IMG/VR virus record: IMGVR_UViG_3300032298_001311
Span: 1 to 64,000 of that record
DNA: 64,000 nucleotides
Strand: one strand, 5' to 3'
Origin: a virus
The notes beneath the pieces are model-generated. The model was not told where the DNA came from. It saw only the letters and a list, made by a program, of their open reading frames with translations, and did no database searches. A program made the translations under genes and the position numbers. This document shows, piece by piece, positions 43,172 to 62,055 of the stretch. The stretch's first letter is position 1. Each line of letters begins with the position of its first letter.

Positions 43172-44377
43172 TTACTTATTTTCTTTAAAAAGATAATTGA
43201 ATAGTTCCGGAAGGTAATTTTCTATTGATCTATTTCTAAATTTATCTGATTTTTCAATAAAAGTTTTTGCTCTATTAAATTTATCAGATTTATTATCTTG
43301 TGGTTCTTCTAGCCATTCTATTAATGTATTAAATTGATCAAAATTTGGAAGGTATTCTTCGTCTTTCCAAGTCTCTTTCATATTTTTTAAATTATTAATT
43401 TCAATTTGACGATACTCTAAATCTAGTATGTGACAATTAACATAATCGGGATTTACTGCATTTTGAATATGTATACTTGTAGGTATCTTATATTCTTGTG
43501 TAAGTCTTTTCCAAAAAGAAAAAACCTCATGTATACCTAAAGAATTGAAGATGCTCAATGTGGTGCTTAATGATATACCATGTCTTTGAGGATTTTCTTT
43601 TACAAGTTGGAAATATCTTCTAACATTTTTTTCAACTTTTTCCCATGATACAGGGTATCTTATATAATCGTTTATTTTATTATATCCGTCAATAGATACA
43701 CCAACATGAACATATTTAAAACTCTCCCATAGACTAATCATTTTATCGGACATACCTGTTAGATTTGTTACATAATGTAAACTTATATTATGACTTTTTC
43801 CTTGTTCTATTAGTTTTTGAAGGAATTCCATGTGTTCTTCCATTATTGTAGGTTCGCCACCTATAAACTGTATTCTATTTAAATTAGGAAAAGCATTACA
43901 TAATTCGTCAATTTTTTCTTTTGTTATAGATGACCTTGGATTCTTCATTAGAGATCCAAAAATATATTCATGTTCTTCTTCCCATAGAGTACTAGAATGC
44001 CATGAACATGTCATACATTTACTGTTACATTTTGATCCCAACGACAAGTCTAAAAAATAAATGTCGTTTGGATTTAAAATTTTATTCATAGGAATTTCTG
44101 AATTTGGTAAATGATTATTCCATCCAGTCCTCATAGAAGTATTACTAGCATTTTCGGATATTTTACATCTAGTGCATACTTCTGGCCATTCGCCATTTAT
44201 AAGTTGTTCTCTAAATTCGATTAAACTTTTTTTATTAATACTTTCTAAAATAGAATTATAAGATTCCTCGTCTTTTTTCCAATTAAGAGTCGAACAACAA
44301 GGTTGGGTTTCTCCCATAACATTGATATTAATCGATCCAAAAGCTAATCCGCAATAAATGGGAGTTTTTTTATCCAT
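43172..44377 (-). CDS. Radical SAM protein with extra Cys clusters (twitch/SPASM-like)
   Basis: A 401-residue radical SAM enzyme. The core CxxxCxxC is SKCNSKCMTCSWHS (about 117-130), followed by RIQFIGGEPTIMEEHMEFL (GGEP motif) and VHVGVSIDGYNK. Additional Cys before the core (PCCSTLNW, CTRCKISE) suggest an auxiliary Fe-S cluster. Such proteins modify peptides or sugars by radical chemistry. A TATAAATAC motif precedes it. The IscA-like carrier at 27166-27492 could help cluster supply. The substrate is unknown; relatives are frequent in large aquatic phages. Confidence 0.85.
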   Translation of the reverse strand: MDKKTPIYCGLAFGSININVMGETQPCCSTLNWKKDEESYNSILESINKKSLIEFREQLINGEWPEVCTRCKISENASNTSMRTGWNNHLPNSEIPMNKILNPNDIYFLDLSLGSKCNSKCMTCSWHSSTLWEEEHEYIFGSLMKNPRSSITKEKIDELCNAFPNLNRIQFIGGEPTIMEEHMEFLQKLIEQGKSHNISLHYVTNLTGMSDKMISLWESFKYVHVGVSIDGYNKINDYIRYPVSWEKVEKNVRRYFQLVKENPQRHGISLSTTLSIFNSLGIHEVFSFWKRLTQEYKIPTSIHIQNAVNPDYVNCHILDLEYRQIEINNLKNMKETWKDEEYLPNFDQFNTLIEWLEEPQDNKSDKFNRAKTFIEKSDKFRNRSIENYLPELFNYLFKENK

Positions 44378-45221: not shown

Positions 45222-45719
45222 TTATTCTTCCTTTGGAATTAAACTTTCTAACGGGGTTGGTGTAAAGTTTAACATCTCTACACAACAGTTTATATAACTC
45301 GACTCCGGTACTGAATTTTTATGGACATGTCCGTGTAAGTTATACTTTGTCTTATACAATGACGAAGTATGAACAGGAACATGCGTCAGTAGACAGTTAT
45401 ATTCCGGAAACATTCTCCACATCATAATTTTCTGGAAATTCTTATGTAAGTTTTCACACTTGCCATTATCATGATTTCCAAGGATCAAACGCTTGCGTCC
45501 TTTTAGGCGATTAAGTACTTCGTGACCTTTCCCAAAATAAACATCACCAAGATGATATACGATATCTCCATCGGAGACAACTCGATTCCAGTTTTCAACC
45601 ATTGTTTCATTCATATGCTCCACTGATTCAAACAGACGGAGGAATTCTCCGTCTGTGGTTTTGAATTTAAGGATATTCGTATGACCAAAGTGCGTATCCG
45701 AAATTACAAAGATGGTCAT
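45222..45719 (-). CDS. Calcineurin-like metallophosphoesterase
   Basis: A 165-residue YfcE/MJ0936-like phosphoesterase with all metal motifs in order: ISDTHFGH (DxH), YHLGDVYFG (GD), LILGNHDN (GNHD), LTHVPVH (TH) and HGHVHKN (GHxH). The start overlaps the ftsH stop by one base, so it is translated with ftsH. Possible substrates are nucleotides or phosphodiesters; not determinable here. Related small phosphoesterases are common in large phages. Confidence 0.88.
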   Translation of the reverse strand: MTIFVISDTHFGHTNILKFKTTDGEFLRLFESVEHMNETMVENWNRVVSDGDIVYHLGDVYFGKGHEVLNRLKGRKRLILGNHDNGKCENLHKNFQKIMMWRMFPEYNCLLTHVPVHTSSLYKTKYNLHGHVHKNSVPESSYINCCVEMLNFTPTPLESLIPKEE

Positions 45720-47536
45720 TACGACTCCCTAATTGGTTCCTTTCCATCTAGCAGATCGATTATTTCTTGTCCGCTCAATGTCTCATATAGTATAAGGCCT
45801 TGTGCAAGTTTGTCAAGTTGATCACGCTTCTCTATTAGGATTTGTTTTGCCGTTTCATATCCTTCTTGAATAAAACGACGGACTTCGTTATCGATTACCT
45901 TTTGGGTTTCTTGTGATATATGTTGTTCACGACCCATTGAATAACCGAGGAACTGTTCCTGCTGTGGCTCACTATAAGCAACTGTTCCAAGTTTATCACT
46001 AAAGCCTAATTGGGTAACCATAGCACGAGCAATTCGAGTAGCCTGTTGGATATCACCAGCAGCACCTGAACTTACCTTATCGTGTCCAAAAATTAATTCT
46101 TCAGCAACACGACCTCCCATTGCCATTGCCAACATTGCAATCAACTGTTCGTAGGTTTGACTAATCTCGTCACGTTCCGGAAGTGATTGCACCATACCTA
46201 AAGCACGACCTCTCGGTATGATTGTAGCTTTATGGATCGGTGTAGATCCTGGCATATTAAGACTTACAAGAGCATGTCCTCCTTCGTGATAAGCAGTCAT
46301 CTTTTTCTCATCATCGGTCATTAATAATGTGCGACGCTCTGCTCCCATAAGAATTTTATCACGGGCATCTTCAAATTCCTGTTTAGTAACAATTCTCTTA
46401 CTGCGACGAGCAGCAAGTAGAGCCGCCTCGTTAACAAGATTCATTAAGTCAGCACCACTAAATCCGGGTGTGCCACGAGCAACTACTTTAAGATCAACAT
46501 CTGGAGCAAGTGGAACTTTACGTGCGTGAACTTTAAGTATTTTTTCACGTCCTGTAATATCTGGATTACCTACAGTAATCTGACGATCAAATCTTCCTGG
46601 ACGAAGTAATGCAGGATCGAGAACATCAACTCTGTTAGTTGCTGCTATGATAATAATACCTTCGTTAGGTTCAAAGCCGTCCATTTCAACAAGTAAAGCA
46701 TTAAGTGTTTGTTCACGCTCATCGTTACCACCGCCTAATCCGGCACCACGATGTCTACCAACAGCATCAACTTCGTCAACAAACACAATACATGGAGCAT
46801 TTTTCTTTGCTTGTTCAAACATGTCACGAACACGACTTGCACCAACACCAACAAACATCTCAACAAAGTCTGAACCAGAAATGCTAAAAAACGGGACTCC
46901 TGCTTCACCTGCTACTGCTTTAGCAAGTAGAGTTTTACCAGTACCTGGTGGTCCAACTAATAGAACACCTCTTGGAATTTTACCACCAACAAGTTCAAAC
47001 TTGTTAGGATTCTTAAGAAAATCTACAACCTCTTGTAGGTCTTCCTTTGCTTCGTCAACACCTGCAACATCTTCAAATGTCACTGTGCCTTGCGATTCCA
47101 TAAGTTTGGCTTTTGATTTACCAAATCCCATAGCACCGCCCATGCCACCTCCTCCTCGCATACCCCTTGCTAACCAATACCATACAAGTATGAATACAAT
47201 TAAAGGTAGCAAATTTGCAGCTAATAGAGATGTCCAAGTTTCACCACCTACTGGTTTAACTGTAATTTGTACTTTTTTATCCTGTAGTTTTGTAATAAGT
47301 GTTGGGTCATTTGGGACATATGTTTGAAAAGTTCTGTTATCACTAAAATGACCCTGAACATCACTTCCACTAATCAAAACATCGTGGACACGACCTTCAC
47401 TGATTTGAACAAGAAAATCGCTAAAATTGATTTCTCTTGTACTAGGCTTACTCTCTTGATTTTGCCACATAGCAAACAGAATACCTGCCACTACAGAAAA
47501 AACAATCCAAGGTATATACTTCTTAAGGTTTTTCAT
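45719..47536 (-). CDS. ftsH: FtsH membrane AAA+ zinc metalloprotease
   Basis: A full-length 605-residue FtsH. Two membrane segments ([17 protein letters not shown] and [15 protein letters not shown], residues 8-24 and 109-123) flank a periplasmic domain. The AAA module has Walker A GPPGTGKT (195-202), Walker B VFVDEVD (251-257) and arginine fingers in [10 protein letters not shown]. The protease motif is HEGGH (417-421). It degrades membrane and some soluble proteins. Phage ftsH is known from marine phages, where photosystem turnover is proposed; here the target could be host membrane proteins such as the methane monooxygenase. A BI-1/YccA-like FtsH modulator is at 51515-52204. Confidence 0.96.
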
Positions 47537-51514: not shown

Positions 51515-52204
51515 TTACTTACGATCTCCGAAGAGCATAAGCAGATTTATAAACATGTTGATAAAGTTCATATAAAGTTGTAATGCTCCGTAAATACCAA
51601 GCATTTCTCTTTCACCTTCATAAGAACGATCGTACATGTCCTTTAACATCTGAACATCATAAGCAGTAAGACCTGCGAAAAGTAATACTGCGATAAGACT
51701 TGTAGCAGTAGCAATAACTGTGCTCTGAACAAATAAATTAATAAGACCAGTTATAATCAGCCCCATCAATCCCATAAACAAGAATGATCCAAACTGTGTT
51801 AGATCACGCTTCGTTGTATATCCATACAGGCTAACTGCTCCAAACATAGCACTTGTTCCAAAGAAAAGTGTAAAGATACTACCCATCTTAAACAGAGCAA
51901 AGATAAATGCTAAACTTATACCTGTTGCTGCTGAATAAACATAGAACCAAGTTCTTGCCTGCGCTGGAGTCATTGATCTAATAGCCCAAGACAAGTACAT
52001 AACAATTCCTAATGGTGCTAACATCACTAACCATTTTTGTGGACCACCGAAGAACATTCCTAATAGTTCTGGACTTGTGCCAACAATAAATGATAGCACA
52101 CTACTAATGGCGAGACCTATCGCCATATTATTAAAGATACTGAGCATATACTGTCTCAGCCCTTCGTTATAAGAAATACCTACAGTATTATAACCGGATC
52201 TCAT
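51515..52204 (-). CDS. BI-1/YccA-family membrane protein
   Basis: A 229-residue protein with seven hydrophobic segments (for example SVLSFIVGTSPELLGMFFGG, PLGIVMYLSWAI, GISLAFIFALFKMG and ATATSLIAVLLFAGLTAYDV). The block GLTAYDVQMLKDMYD and the C-terminal Asp of LMLFGDRK are typical of the Bax-inhibitor-1/YccA family. E. coli YccA binds FtsH and slows its proteolysis, and this phage also encodes FtsH (45719-47536). So it may tune the phage or host FtsH. No signal peptide is needed. Confidence 0.88.
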   Translation of the reverse strand: MRSGYNTVGISYNEGLRQYMLSIFNNMAIGLAISSVLSFIVGTSPELLGMFFGGPQKWLVMLAPLGIVMYLSWAIRSMTPAQARTWFYVYSAATGISLAFIFALFKMGSIFTLFFGTSAMFGAVSLYGYTTKRDLTQFGSFLFMGLMGLIITGLINLFVQSTVIATATSLIAVLLFAGLTAYDVQMLKDMYDRSYEGEREMLGIYGALQLYMNFINMFINLLMLFGDRK

Positions 52205-55646: not shown

Positions 55647-55736
55647 TGGCGGAAGGAGTGGGATTCGAACCCACGGTAGCATCTCTGCTACGCCCATTTA
55701 GCAAACGGGTGCTTTCGGCCTCTCAGCCATCCTTCC
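55647..55736 (-). tRNA. tRNA-Ser (GCU)
   Basis: A class II tRNA with a long variable arm. Acceptor GGAAGGA/TCCTTCC, anticodon arm CCCGT-TTGCTAA-ATGGG, T-loop TTCGAAT, discriminator G, encoded CCA. It has a perfect promoter upstream. Confidence 0.93.
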
Positions 55737-55745
55737 ATACTGTAA

Positions 55746-55774
55746 ATTATATATGCTTCACTGGACTATGTCAA
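55746..55774 (-). promoter_or_regulatory. Perfect-consensus sigma70 promoter for tRNA-Ser (GCU)
   Basis: Minus strand TTGACA, exactly 17 nt, TATAAT, ending 9 nt before the tRNA 5' end. Confidence 0.8.
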
Positions 55775-55780
55775 GAAGAA

Positions 55781-55805
55781 AGCCGCCCGTATTACACGAG
55801 CGGCT
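55781..55805 (-). terminator. Rho-independent terminator after pmoC
   Basis: Minus-strand stem of 10 bp, AGCCGCTCGT/ACGGGCGGCT with one G-U pair and loop GTAAT, followed by TTTCTTCTT. It lies 27 nt after the pmoC stop and insulates pmoC from the tRNA-Ser promoter. Confidence 0.8.
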
Positions 55806-55831: not shown

Positions 55832-56599
55832 TTAATCAGCGAGGAGGGCGACGCCGTCCTTACCAACTAGAGCATGTACTCTTCCGAGGATCTGTAGAAC
55901 AACACCAAATACACCTAGTGCCATCCAACCAAAGAACACAAAGCCCCAATGTAGAGGTGCTACGAAGAGCTCTTCCATAAACCAGAATGTATGACCCCAC
56001 TCATTGAGACCAACATTTGGAATAATCATGAACGGACCAATAGCAACGATCAAGAATGCTAGTGAATAGCCCTGAGCGAAGTATGGGATACGTGTTCTTG
56101 CGTAGAAGAACGCACCAACAGCAATAACGCTGTAGATTGGGTAGCTCATGTAGAACTCAATGATGTGACTTGGAGTGAAGTCAGTATCACGAATAACTGT
56201 CATGTGCCAAGTTCCGTCCTGCTCTGTAAAGAACGAAGCACCCCAGTAAATAGCAACACCGTAAACTACGAGCCACTGTACAAGGGTTACAAGGCGACGC
56301 ATTTCTTCACGAGGAGTTACGTTAGCTAGATCGCGATCGCGAGTCTTCCAAAGATAACCAGCAAGTCCTAGTCCAGAAACTAGTTCTAGTGGAATCTCTG
56401 TCCAAAGGATTGACATCCAATATGTCTGGAACTCTGGAGCAAATGAATCTAGTCCAGCTCTCCATCCGAAGACCTGCTCATAGATACGTACAATTAGATA
56501 GAAAACATTTAAACATGCTAGTCCGATCCACATACCACGTAGATCAACAACCTGTGCGTCTGTGTCCGCAAGTGCGGTAGTCTTAGTAAGTGTTGCCAT
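55832..56599 (-). CDS. pmoC: Particulate methane monooxygenase subunit C
   Basis: A complete 255-residue PmoC, an integral inner-membrane subunit of the copper methane monooxygenase. It has the usual hydrophobic helices and length. The two metal sites are intact: Asp128, His132 and His145 (TEQDGTWH ... FTPSH) match CuC, and Asn199, His203 and His217 (LNEWGHTFWF ... APLHWGF) match CuD. Sequence such as VDLRGMWIGLACLNVFYLIV is of the alphaproteobacterial methanotroph type; AmoC of ammonia oxidisers is less likely. No pmoA or pmoB is beside it. It has AGGAG, a late promoter, a long leader and a terminator. Base composition is richer in GC than flanking genes. Expected to swap into or boost the host enzyme during infection. 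Confidence 0.96.
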   Translation of the reverse strand: MATLTKTTALADTDAQVVDLRGMWIGLACLNVFYLIVRIYEQVFGWRAGLDSFAPEFQTYWMSILWTEIPLELVSGLGLAGYLWKTRDRDLANVTPREEMRRLVTLVQWLVVYGVAIYWGASFFTEQDGTWHMTVIRDTDFTPSHIIEFYMSYPIYSVIAVGAFFYARTRIPYFAQGYSLAFLIVAIGPFMIIPNVGLNEWGHTFWFMEELFVAPLHWGFVFFGWMALGVFGVVLQILGRVHALVGKDGVALLAD

Positions 56600-56632
56600 T
56601 TCTTATCTCCTATAAAGTTAGGCATTTTTATT

Positions 56633-56682
56633 GAGCATCACTGAAATCTTACGGTTCACCACCTCCCGATGTAGTGATGCTC
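56633..56682 (-). promoter_or_regulatory. Hairpin in the pmoC leader RNA
   Basis: GAGCATCACT (56633-56642) and AGTGATGCTC (56673-56682) form a perfect 10-bp stem around a 30-nt loop holding GGGAGG. A second GGGGAGG lies at 56721-56727. A possible 13-codon upstream frame (56618-56659, GTG start) ends 18 nt before the pmoC ATG, but its ribosome-binding site is too close. The 56600-56810 stretch is otherwise empty. It may control translation or mRNA stability. Confidence 0.5.
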
Positions 56683-56754
56683 CGTTTACACACGTTATAT
56701 GAGTTGTTTTACTTGCACACCTCCCCGGTTAAAGTATCACTTTACTCTGACAAG

Positions 56755-56762
56755 TATTTATA
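56755..56762 (-). promoter_or_regulatory. T4-like late promoter motif for pmoC
   Basis: Minus strand TATAAATA, an exact match to the T4 late consensus, about 155 nt upstream of the pmoC start. A TTGACA at 56809-56814 lacks a well-placed -10. Confidence 0.6.
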
Positions 56763-57635: not shown

Positions 57636-59747
57636 TTACCAATTTCCTTCATTACAATAATGATATTTGAAAGAAAAATCAATAGTTTTATTGAAGATCT
57701 TTTCTTCATTCATTAAGAATGCAAATTCTTGTTCTGTTCTACCATTTTCTAAATCATATTTTGGTTTTGCAAGTTTTCTTGCTCTTATAGCAGTATTACT
57801 TTTAATTCTTGTGTAATCTTGTGCATAGAATGGTCCTCTACGATGATCTCTTCTATTGTCAAAAGGATTTTCGATTTGATTTAATGTTACATCAAAATCT
57901 GCAAACCATTTACCATTATCGTCGATTATAAATTTATAAATTGCATTAAGCATACCTGGATCATATTGATTACCAAACTCTTTTAGATCAATATCTGGAT
58001 TATATTTGATTTCAATTTCAAAGGCCCCTCTCGTTTTCCAAAGGATTCTTAATAGCGGCCATACTTCATTCATTAATGAATCAGCAAATGAATTTATATT
58101 TGGTTTAATGATATTATAATCAAAATTTTCAAATTCTATTTCATTAATAATACTAGGATTGTTAAATTTTATTTTATAATGAGATCTTGCTAATTCTGTT
58201 CTAGGGGGGTATGAAATTGGTTTTTCTGTACAGTCTTTCATTATATCTAAAAATATATGTGCTGTTTTTAAACGGACCATAACATGAGTTCCGCCCATAG
58301 AAAAATCTTTTGTAATCCAATGTCCTTGATAAAAGTGATCGGAAATATTGAATCTATTTAAATTTTGTCCAACTATGGCTTCGGAACTCAACCCAAATCC
58401 ACCCCCTATTCCAATATTATTCATATTAAGATTTCTTAATCTCCACAGTAATGTTAAAGTATCCGCAAAGTCTTGATATTTTTCTGTAGGAAATCCTACA
58501 ATCCAATTAGTTGCATTAAATATACCAACTTCTTTACCGTCTTTGAAATTTTGTTCTATTTCTGAAATTTTAACTTTTTTATCCATATCGTCTAAAACTT
58601 TTTGACTGCCAGATTCAACACCATAATTTAACATAATGCATCCGCCAGCTTTAAGATCTTTAAAATAATCTAAATCCATTCGTCCGTCACAACGGGCATA
58701 TCCAGTCCAATTTATGTTCAATCCTTTAGTCTGAACAGCTTTACAAAAAGCTCTCAATTCATTAATATTACCATTCACTAAACTATCTATAAACCAGATA
58801 ACATCAGTTCCTTTGTTATAATATAACCATTCGATTTCAGTAATTAAATCTACAGAACTTCGTTGTCTATATTTCCAAAAGTGTGTCTCTTCACAAAATG
58901 TACATTTTGCAATACATCCTCTACTGATTTCTGTATTAACACCGTTAGGAATACTGTAATCACTAAAATTAATACTTTCATAATCGGGCATGGGAAACCC
59001 ATTAAGATTTAATCTTTGATCTTCTGGCTGTGTTATATATTGTGTGGTATCATGCACGATACCATTTTCAATTTCATCTAATATTTGTAATAAAGCATAT
59101 TCACCCTCGCCGTTCACAACATAGTCATAATACGGATGTCGTTCAAACCAAGATTTTTGTACATTACTACCACCAACTAATATTTTAATGTTTGGAAGTT
59201 TTTTCTTTAATTCTCGACACATCCATTTTGTAGGTTCTTCATTTACATCATAAACTGTGAACCCTACTGCTTGAGGATTGAATTCTATAATTTTATCAAT
59301 TGCTTCTTGTAAAATATTATCTAGATAAGGATGAACATCTTCTAAATATCTTCCTTCTCTCCATTTCCAATGTACACTCGGGTCCCATAAACTTGTATTA
59401 TGATTGTACAAATACCCTGACTCTTTTTGAAACTGATTATAGGCCTTAACATTTAAATCTAATATATGAGTTTCATATCCTGCTGTTTTTGCAACACCAC
59501 TTAGTCTTGCTAAATTAAAAGGGGGGAATTGTGCAGCCCATTGAGGACATAAAACTAATGCTAATTTTGTATTTCTTTTTTTATAATTTATATAAACCGG
59601 AGTAACATTTTTTTGGTCAACTTTTTTAGCATAGGGAGCAATAGCAGCTAACATACTCATGTGTCGGTCATTAGCTGTATTTTCCGAAGGTTTTTCTTTT
59701 AATTCTACATTTCTTTTAGCTAAACTACTTAAATTGAAATCTACCAA
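57636..59747 (-). CDS. B12-binding-domain radical SAM protein, 703 aa
   Basis: After a 50-residue extension comes a cobalamin-binding Rossmann domain (LALVLCPQWAAQFPPFNLAR, then VGFTVYDVNEEP and ILVGGSNVQ). Next is a radical SAM core with TEISRGCIAKCTFCEETHFW (CxxxCxxC) and WTGYARCDGRMDLDYFKDLK. The last 200 residues are an unassigned domain, ending HYCNEGNW. Members of this class do methylations or other radical chemistry on hopanoids, peptides or cofactors. The DxHxxG B12 motif is not evident. Frequent in large aquatic phages; the substrate is unknown. Confidence 0.85.
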   Translation of the reverse strand: MVDFNLSSLAKRNVELKEKPSENTANDRHMSMLAAIAPYAKKVDQKNVTPVYINYKKRNTKLALVLCPQWAAQFPPFNLARLSGVAKTAGYETHILDLNVKAYNQFQKESGYLYNHNTSLWDPSVHWKWREGRYLEDVHPYLDNILQEAIDKIIEFNPQAVGFTVYDVNEEPTKWMCRELKKKLPNIKILVGGSNVQKSWFERHPYYDYVVNGEGEYALLQILDEIENGIVHDTTQYITQPEDQRLNLNGFPMPDYESINFSDYSIPNGVNTEISRGCIAKCTFCEETHFWKYRQRSSVDLITEIEWLYYNKGTDVIWFIDSLVNGNINELRAFCKAVQTKGLNINWTGYARCDGRMDLDYFKDLKAGGCIMLNYGVESGSQKVLDDMDKKVKISEIEQNFKDGKEVGIFNATNWIVGFPTEKYQDFADTLTLLWRLRNLNMNNIGIGGGFGLSSEAIVGQNLNRFNISDHFYQGHWITKDFSMGGTHVMVRLKTAHIFLDIMKDCTEKPISYPPRTELARSHYKIKFNNPSIINEIEFENFDYNIIKPNINSFADSLMNEVWPLLRILWKTRGAFEIEIKYNPDIDLKEFGNQYDPGMLNAIYKFIIDDNGKWFADFDVTLNQIENPFDNRRDHRRGPFYAQDYTRIKSNTAIRARKLAKPKYDLENGRTEQEFAFLMNEEKIFNKTIDFSFKYHYCNEGNW

Positions 59748-60641: not shown

Positions 60642-61457
60642 TTAGTCGTCCTTCTTTCCGATCTTCATAACCAAACATTTACATGCACCACCGGATTTCA
60701 TAAACTCACTCATATCAAACATCTGAACTTTATATCCGAGATTTGTAAGTTTATCAGCAACAGAATTGCATTCTGGCATAAACACATAATTCTTAATAAC
60801 AACAGCATTACAAGCAAATGTTAATGCTTCCTCTTCTGTTACTTCTATTGAATAACGCTTAGTAGAAAATTTTCGAATCTTTTCTTGTGACTCTTCGTCA
60901 AATGCTTCTGGATACCAAAGTACCCCGTTTTCCTTTAGGGGAGCAAAGCAAGTATCAAGATGATAAAAACGATCATCAACAAGATGTAACTTACGTAGAT
61001 TTACAATTTCATCGAAAGGGAATTTATCGTGAAGTTTCCTAGCACTTCTAAATCCATGTCCTATCCAATGTGATTCCATATCCCCTTTTAAGAGATCCCC
61101 TTCACCTTCAAAATGATCGTTTGGATAATAGACAGCATATCCATGATCCTTAAACCAATTCATAAAATGTATCTCTTCACCTTTACGTTGGTCGTTTCTA
61201 AAGTTAGACATATAAACCATATTATGTCGTCTCTTATAAAACCCAGCATTCGCAGTAAAAACCATATCTGGCAATCCTGGTTGCGGATCAATTAGATAGA
61301 CATCAGCAACTTCACGTACAGCACTATAAAGTCTCTTCCATTGTCTTTCTGCTAAGTCTTTATCAACTTTATGTAGGTTTTCAGTCATCCAAGGATTGAT
61401 GTCATAGTCAACATCATAATACATTGGAGGGCACATTAAAAGTTTACTGGTGTTCAA
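60642..61457 (-). CDS. Amidinotransferase-fold hydrolase (arginine deiminase/DDAH-like)
   Basis: A 271-residue pentein-fold enzyme acting on arginine-type guanidines. Signatures: [58 protein letters not shown] (catalytic His) and [16 protein letters not shown] (nucleophile Cys near the C-terminus). Products could be citrulline or ornithine plus ammonia, or dimethylamine for DDAH. In infection it could release nitrogen from arginine. It overlaps clpP by 14 nt, so both are co-translated. The exact substrate is not determinable. Confidence 0.82.
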
Positions 61458-62055
61458 TTGCTTCTTCCCTTGATGTAATAACTCTATCTGCTAATCCATA
61501 AGCAACGGCTTCTACGGCACTCATGAAATAATCACGTTCCATATCAGCAGCAAGTTCTTCGTATAATTTACCTTGCGAATTATGCTTAACGTAGATTTCA
61601 GTGAGATACTTCTTCATCTTAAGAATCTCTTGTGCTTGGATCTGAATATCCGTAGCCTGACCTCTTGCTCCACCACTTGGTTGGTGAATCATATGTCTTG
61701 TATTAGGAAGAATAAGTCTTTTACCTGGAGCACCTGCTTGAGCAAGAAGTGACCCCATAGAACAAACTTGACCCATTGCGATTGTAACAACATCTGGATT
61801 AATGAATTGCATAGTATCATAAATTGCCATGCCTGCGGTAACAACACCACCGGGTGAGTTAATGTACATGTAAATGTCTTTACTTGCGTTTTGACTTTCA
61901 AGAAAGAGAAGCTGAGCACAAATAAGTCCGCTCATATGATCACCAACTTCTCCCTCGAGCATAATGATACGATCTTTAAGCAAGCGACTAAAGATATCAT
62001 AACTGCGTTCGCCGCCTGATTCCTTTTCAACAACAACTGGAACGAGATTAGCCAT
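61444..62055 (-). CDS. clpP: ClpP serine protease
   Basis: A full-length 203-residue ClpP, the barrel protease that works with ClpA or ClpX. The catalytic triad is present: Ser99 ([10 protein letters not shown]), His124 ([11 protein letters not shown]) and Asp175 (MERDYFMSA). The handle helix and substrate strand [20 protein letters not shown] are intact. A ClpA-like unfoldase with an IGF docking loop is encoded at 1760-4027, so the phage could build its own ClpAP. It could also mix with host subunits. The start overlaps the stop of 62055-62288 by one base. Confidence 0.95.

Follow-up and report, generated by a model that had tools for sequence, protein, structure and literature searches.

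Large freshwater phages that carry pmoC, the gene for subunit C of the particulate methane monooxygenase (pMMO), have already been published (Chen et al. 2020, PMC7674155; also Zhong et al. 2024, PMC10904782). Transcripts of pmoC in other phages of this kind increase together with those of structural genes, and in Lake Rotsee phage pmoC was transcribed at a high level, again with structural genes (PMC7674155). The same paper names amoC in viruses of ammonia-oxidizing archaea. Why phages take subunit C alone has been a standing question since 2020, and lake methane release could shift with phage pmoC. On the bacterial side, a stand-alone pmoC lies beside ftsH in Methylocystis strains SC2 and Rockwell, and a role in pMMO quality control has been guessed for this arrangement (Dam et al. 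2013, PMC3794950). The phage pmoC described here adds to the pmoC-phages of Chen et al. (2020), a known kind, and the part that adds to what is known of them is a link to the protease FtsH. The presence of ftsH in pmoC-phages appears to be unreported, based on a literature search that covered main texts; neither FtsH nor the conserved late promoter is discussed in the main texts of PMC7674155 and PMC10904782.

The window (64,000 nucleotides) is part of a partial 128,772-base IMG/VR virus record, IMGVR_UViG_3300032298_001311, with one pmoC. The record carries T4-like replication and virion genes, including those for a T4-type clamp loader and baseplate-like proteins. A DNA polymerase was found in a sister phage that is collinear with the record, and terminase and major capsid genes were not identified. 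Records L231/G085 and L016/G011 have overlapping ends and seem to come from a single phage; as a candidate close relative without pmoC, G085 was rejected, being apparently the same phage as G011 with a contig that stops before pmoC. G085 runs about 55 kb further left than the window record and has no match at the record's right end, so the genome is estimated at at least about 184 kb. One B12-binding radical SAM protein and four members of the radical SAM phage family phrog_14086 were found in this one record (window 57636-59747 and 43172-44377; L163:13377-14621; L164:16079-17332 and L164:17319-18590). The gene for a dimethylargininase-fold protein overlaps a ClpP protease gene (window 60642-62055), and the sister phage keeps both (77% and 90%, respectively).

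The pmoC gene (55832..56599, minus strand) is complete from ATG to stop and encodes 255 amino acids. All six copper ligands (D128, H132, and H145 together with N199, H203, and H217) are present in the phage protein, at positions that match in the alignment those of solved Methylocystis PmoC chains; Methylococcus numbering equals the phage numbering plus 28, so that the first three correspond to Asp156, His160, and His173 (numbering of PMC7674155). The Pfam AmoC model (PF04896), which represents the AmoC/PmoC fold family, matched the protein over its full length (5.5e-109, residues 8 to 247). The best solved relatives were the Methylocystis-type PmoC chains 3rfr, 4phz, and 7s4m, and comparison with the PDB gave 519 bits for PmoC versus 220 bits, less than half, for AmoC. 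An earlier note on this DNA had described, with no strand given, a complete 255-residue PmoC with both copper sites, a description borne out by the ORF, the Pfam match, and the ligand alignment. Its statement that neither pmoA nor pmoB lies alongside also held for the 128.8-kb record. pmoA (PF02461, a model that gives matches in Methylocystis positive controls) was found neither in this record nor in 49 other pmoC-virus records, and pmoB (PF04744) was not found in this partial virus record in a search run without a positive control.

In a tree of 94 PmoC sequences, the phage protein fell inside the Methylocystaceae PmoC1 clade (support, 99), beside the viral sequences L016 and L033, and most viral PmoC sequences of this type were separate from bacterial PmoC. 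AmoC stood outside the tree and was compared by score against solved chains; on tree placement and score together, an AmoC identity was rejected and the phage protein was assigned to Methylocystaceae PmoC. Host pmoC is multicopy and breaks assemblies (PMC7674155), a circumstance that would favor an assembly chimera or a recently acquired host fragment. Against this origin, GC3 of the phage pmoC is 0.39, a phage-like value, versus 0.75 to 0.78 for host pmoC, and dN/dS relative to sister phage L016 is 0.067, indicative of purifying selection. The sister-phage PmoC is encoded at the same locus and is 95% identical, ranking second among 80 shared proteins (median identity, 75%). Recent capture or chimerism was rejected on GC3, dN/dS, and sister-phage collinearity, to which a phage promoter can be added, and is considered hardly credible; by these measures, the phage pmoC is an old, constrained phage gene and not a host fragment.

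The Methylocystis-like methanotroph host proposed in the earlier note is well supported at the level of sequence by the PmoC placement and by a second gene, that for FtsH. A CRISPR search of 40 kb of the record (20 kb against 149 family genomes and 20 kb against 39 genus genomes) yielded no clear spacer and returned gene-like matches. Separately, a Methylosinus-like pmoC was seen in an Elusimicrobia-labelled MAG (L099), most likely through a binning error.

A T4-type late promoter motif, TATAAATA, is located on the minus strand at 56755-56762, 156 nt before the pmoC ATG. Because the window holds no excess of this motif (7 copies versus 14.7 expected), its position was tested across relatives. 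It lies on the coding strand in 12 of its 13 copies in the whole record. Of 77 viral pmoC loci, 52 have the motif 55 to 130 nt upstream (33 of 50 when each distinct protein is counted once). The background rate in 75-nt windows of the same DNA is 0.8%, and none of 47 bacterial pmoC upstream regions has the motif; these counts, like those for ftsH below, take phages as independent and ignore kinship. Its position is held at alpha-type and gamma-type viral pmoC loci alike. The same promoter precedes pmoC in sister phage L016, at 110 nt, and the distance to the ATG is longer in the window than in relatives because the leader holds an extra hairpin. This 5' leader (56600..56749, minus strand, with the start placed from the promoter) contains a Shine-Dalgarno sequence, AGGAG (about 56607-56611, minus strand), and folds better than shuffled sequences (z = -2.97). 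The hairpin, with perfect 10-bp arms (56633..56682, minus strand), is present in a single copy in the record and absent from L016, and it was rejected as a conserved riboregulator.

On the 3' side of pmoC, a terminator-like hairpin followed by a T-rich stretch (55781..55805, minus strand; z = -3.71 relative to shuffles) was identified, which was not among the results of a consensus terminator scan. A perfect sigma-70-like promoter, TTGACA-17-TATAAT (55746..55774, minus strand), then precedes tRNA-Ser (gct) (55647..55736, minus strand) and delimits the pmoC unit on this side. The late motif, the terminator-like hairpin, and the next promoter therefore make pmoC, as judged from sequence, a self-contained late unit. 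Motif position and folding scores agree with the earlier assignment of an own late promoter, leader, and terminator. Late use of the predicted unit is well supported, both by promoter position across relatives and by the timing of pmoC transcription in other pmoC-phages (PMC7674155), in keeping with the late expression that had been claimed.

Two further features were noted around pmoC in other alpha-type pmoC-phages. A stem-loop-like leader, AAGAGTGG...CCACTTGATTTTTT, is shared about 20 to 80 nt before pmoC in L004, L018, L022, L048, and L053; it is conserved in several such phages and absent from this window. A glycosyltransferase and metallophosphoesterase gene pair (L164:909-2653, record 102909-104653) lies about 46 kb from pmoC here, with TATAAATA 8 nt before it, and shares about 70% identity with a gene pair found immediately before pmoC in many other such phages (L004, L009, L011, L022 to L026, and L070).

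These data point to an auxiliary metabolic gene that a large T4-like phage expresses late during infection of a Methylocystis-type methanotroph, with phage PmoC exchanged into pMMO, a reading given a probability of roughly 0.6. It draws on an intact, evidently phage-adapted PmoC, strong purifying selection, and a predicted late promoter that is conserved in position; the exchange into the host enzyme is what we infer from them. Phage PmoC, made late without PmoA or PmoB, would insert into the host membrane and replace host PmoC in the pMMO trimer. Methane oxidation, and hence the supply of reducing power and ATP, would then continue once host expression is under phage control. With one of three subunits carried, expression could also be unbalanced, and excess phage PmoC might alter the host enzyme or block it, perhaps to change membranes or electron flow. 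Such interference is considered improbable, since purifying selection acts on all ligands and on the entire core, and an inhibitor would not require both copper sites. The six ligands were kept in all 80 of the related viral PmoC sequences fetched.

Viral PmoC sequences vary at their N- and C-terminal tails, with 24 to 29% identity over residues 1 to 16 versus 87 to 95% in the core. Membrane proteins are usually gripped by FtsH at their tails. The divergent termini, together with the several stand-alone pmoC copies per host, also favor a proposal put forward by Chen et al. (PMC7674155), in which phage PmoC resembles the host stand-alone copies and supplies either more PmoC or a tail-variant isoform for conditions of stress or of scarce metal or methane. 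Turnover by FtsH would play no part in this reading. The occurrence of the pmoC-linked FtsH type in phages is left unexplained by dosage or isoform effects, which are considered rather unlikely.

The earlier note on the auxiliary gene was confirmed with respect to pmoC, found partial support for its interpretation, and had missed the candidate partner, ftsH. This gene (45719..47536, minus strand) encodes a membrane AAA protease of 605 amino acids, of an accessory Methylocystis FtsH type, with AAA and M41 domains and intact Walker A (GPPGTGKT) and HEXXH (HEGGH) motifs. It is located 8.3 kb from pmoC. In a set of 50 pmoC-virus records, ftsH was present in 17, among them the one studied here, and in several of the 17 it lies 1 to 3 kb downstream of pmoC with hsp20 in between. 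Among records of at least 60 kb, FtsH was found in 9 of 12 with alpha-type pmoC versus 1 of 7 with gamma-type pmoC (two-sided Fisher test, P of about 0.02), or in 10 of 13 alpha-type records when one found via ftsH itself was added (P = 0.017), counts that overstate independence because some records are near-copies. Some large alpha-type pmoC records carry no ftsH, and most ftsH viral contigs tested, which are mostly short fragments with one of 164 kb, show no pmoC, so that ftsH as a strict partner of pmoC is not supported.

FtsH and HSP20 might instead have nothing to do with pmoC and serve general phage quality control, for instance in virion assembly or the control of lysis, their nearness being due to chance or shared ancestry. 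This explanation falls somewhat short of even odds. hsp20 occurs also in related phages without pmoC (PMC7674155), and ftsH is found both in unrelated jumbo phages and in many viral contigs that show no pmoC. Phages otherwise very rarely encode a full-length FtsH, however, with a match over at least 80% of the protein in only 22 of 50,697 public phage records, several of them apparently bacterial contamination. Moreover, the host FtsH that gave rise to viral FtsH was of the accessory, pmoC-linked type rather than the housekeeping one.

Viral FtsH sequences, the divergent L237 and L241 excepted, formed one clade within Methylocystis FtsH (support, 100/99), nested (99/97) among accessory copies, most of which adjoin pmoC. 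They were apart from the housekeeping tilS-ftsH-glmM copies with the exception of that of KS32 (L254), which is placed near the base of the group, perhaps due to gene conversion. The N-terminal 145 residues of the phage FtsH were 56 to 64% identical to the accessory copies of KS32, M. rosea, Sn-Cys, and JZJ.7, compared to 44 to 49% for housekeeping copies and 43 to 46% for two divergent pmoC-linked copies. The accessory ftsH lies directly upstream of pmoC, 2.1 to 2.3 kb before it, in 12 of the 15 Methylocystis genomes in which contigs were long enough to tell; in the remaining three, one ftsH is 7.2 kb from pmoC and two are unlinked. Judged by tree placement and similarity, the phages carry the pmoC-linked accessory FtsH type and not the housekeeping one. 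Since viral FtsH is nested in this type, phages may have acquired the two halves of a module for subunit turnover.

In the hosts of cyanophages, FtsH clears damaged D1 from photosystem II. By analogy, and with less confidence than the exchange of PmoC, PmoC may be a turnover-prone subunit, and phage FtsH, originating from the host protease encoded beside pmoC, may remove damaged or unassembled PmoC in the infected host. Its clearance would let fresh subunits in, as occurs for D1. The observations that bear on this are the genetic linkage and the common origin of the genes. Still more tentatively, and as a proposal that is more doubtful than the general quality control role, Methylocystis and its phages might share a dedicated PmoC-replacement module, in which accessory FtsH clears and stand-alone pmoC resupplies the subunit, run late by the phages as a methane counterpart of D1 repair. 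If true, this module would give a function to the Methylocystis ftsH-pmoC pairs, unexplained since 2013. The ftsH link also suggests a testable answer to the question of subunit C, which may wear out and be swapped and therefore be worth carrying.

Remnants of pmoC (residues 2 to 44 and 235 to 255 only) were seen upstream of intact hsp20 and ftsH in L195, L196, L197, and L198; the sequences show apparent decay or loss of pmoC while its neighbors stay. LM_8 holds a similar partial pmoC (Chen et al., PMC7674155). A gene for a Bax1-I family membrane protein (51515..52204, minus strand) lies between ftsH and pmoC in the window. The Bax1-I family includes YccA, an FtsH modulator in Escherichia coli. 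Membership of this protein in an FtsH/PmoC module is possible but weak, and as a general partner it was rejected, having been found in only 4 of 50 pmoC-virus records. In L075, L077, and L078, Bax1-I is near pmoC and ClpP is 0.3 to 1.5 kb upstream of pmoC.

Cyanophages carry psbA with hsp20, and the phage thereby supplies a short-lived core subunit of a host energy enzyme. The likeness of the present locus to psbA is in this logic of subunit supply; the enzyme differs, and turnover of PmoC by FtsH is proposed by analogy. The amoC of viruses of ammonia-oxidizing archaea likewise encodes just the C subunit of a copper membrane monooxygenase, with another host domain and substrate, and the phage PmoC is far from solved AmoC chains. 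Methylocystis SC2 and Rockwell (PMC3794950) have the same gene pair, theirs being chromosomal, whereas the phage genes are 8.3 kb apart. Close counterparts are the pmoC-phages of lakes, which share with this one a freshwater setting, an apparently large and T4-like genome, a stand-alone pmoC of alphaproteobacterial type without pmoA or pmoB, many tRNAs, and HSP20. The pmoC-phage genomes of Chen et al. (2020) are those of T4-like myoviruses of 159 to 527 kb, compared to 128.8 kb for this record and about 184 kb for its map with the sister phage.
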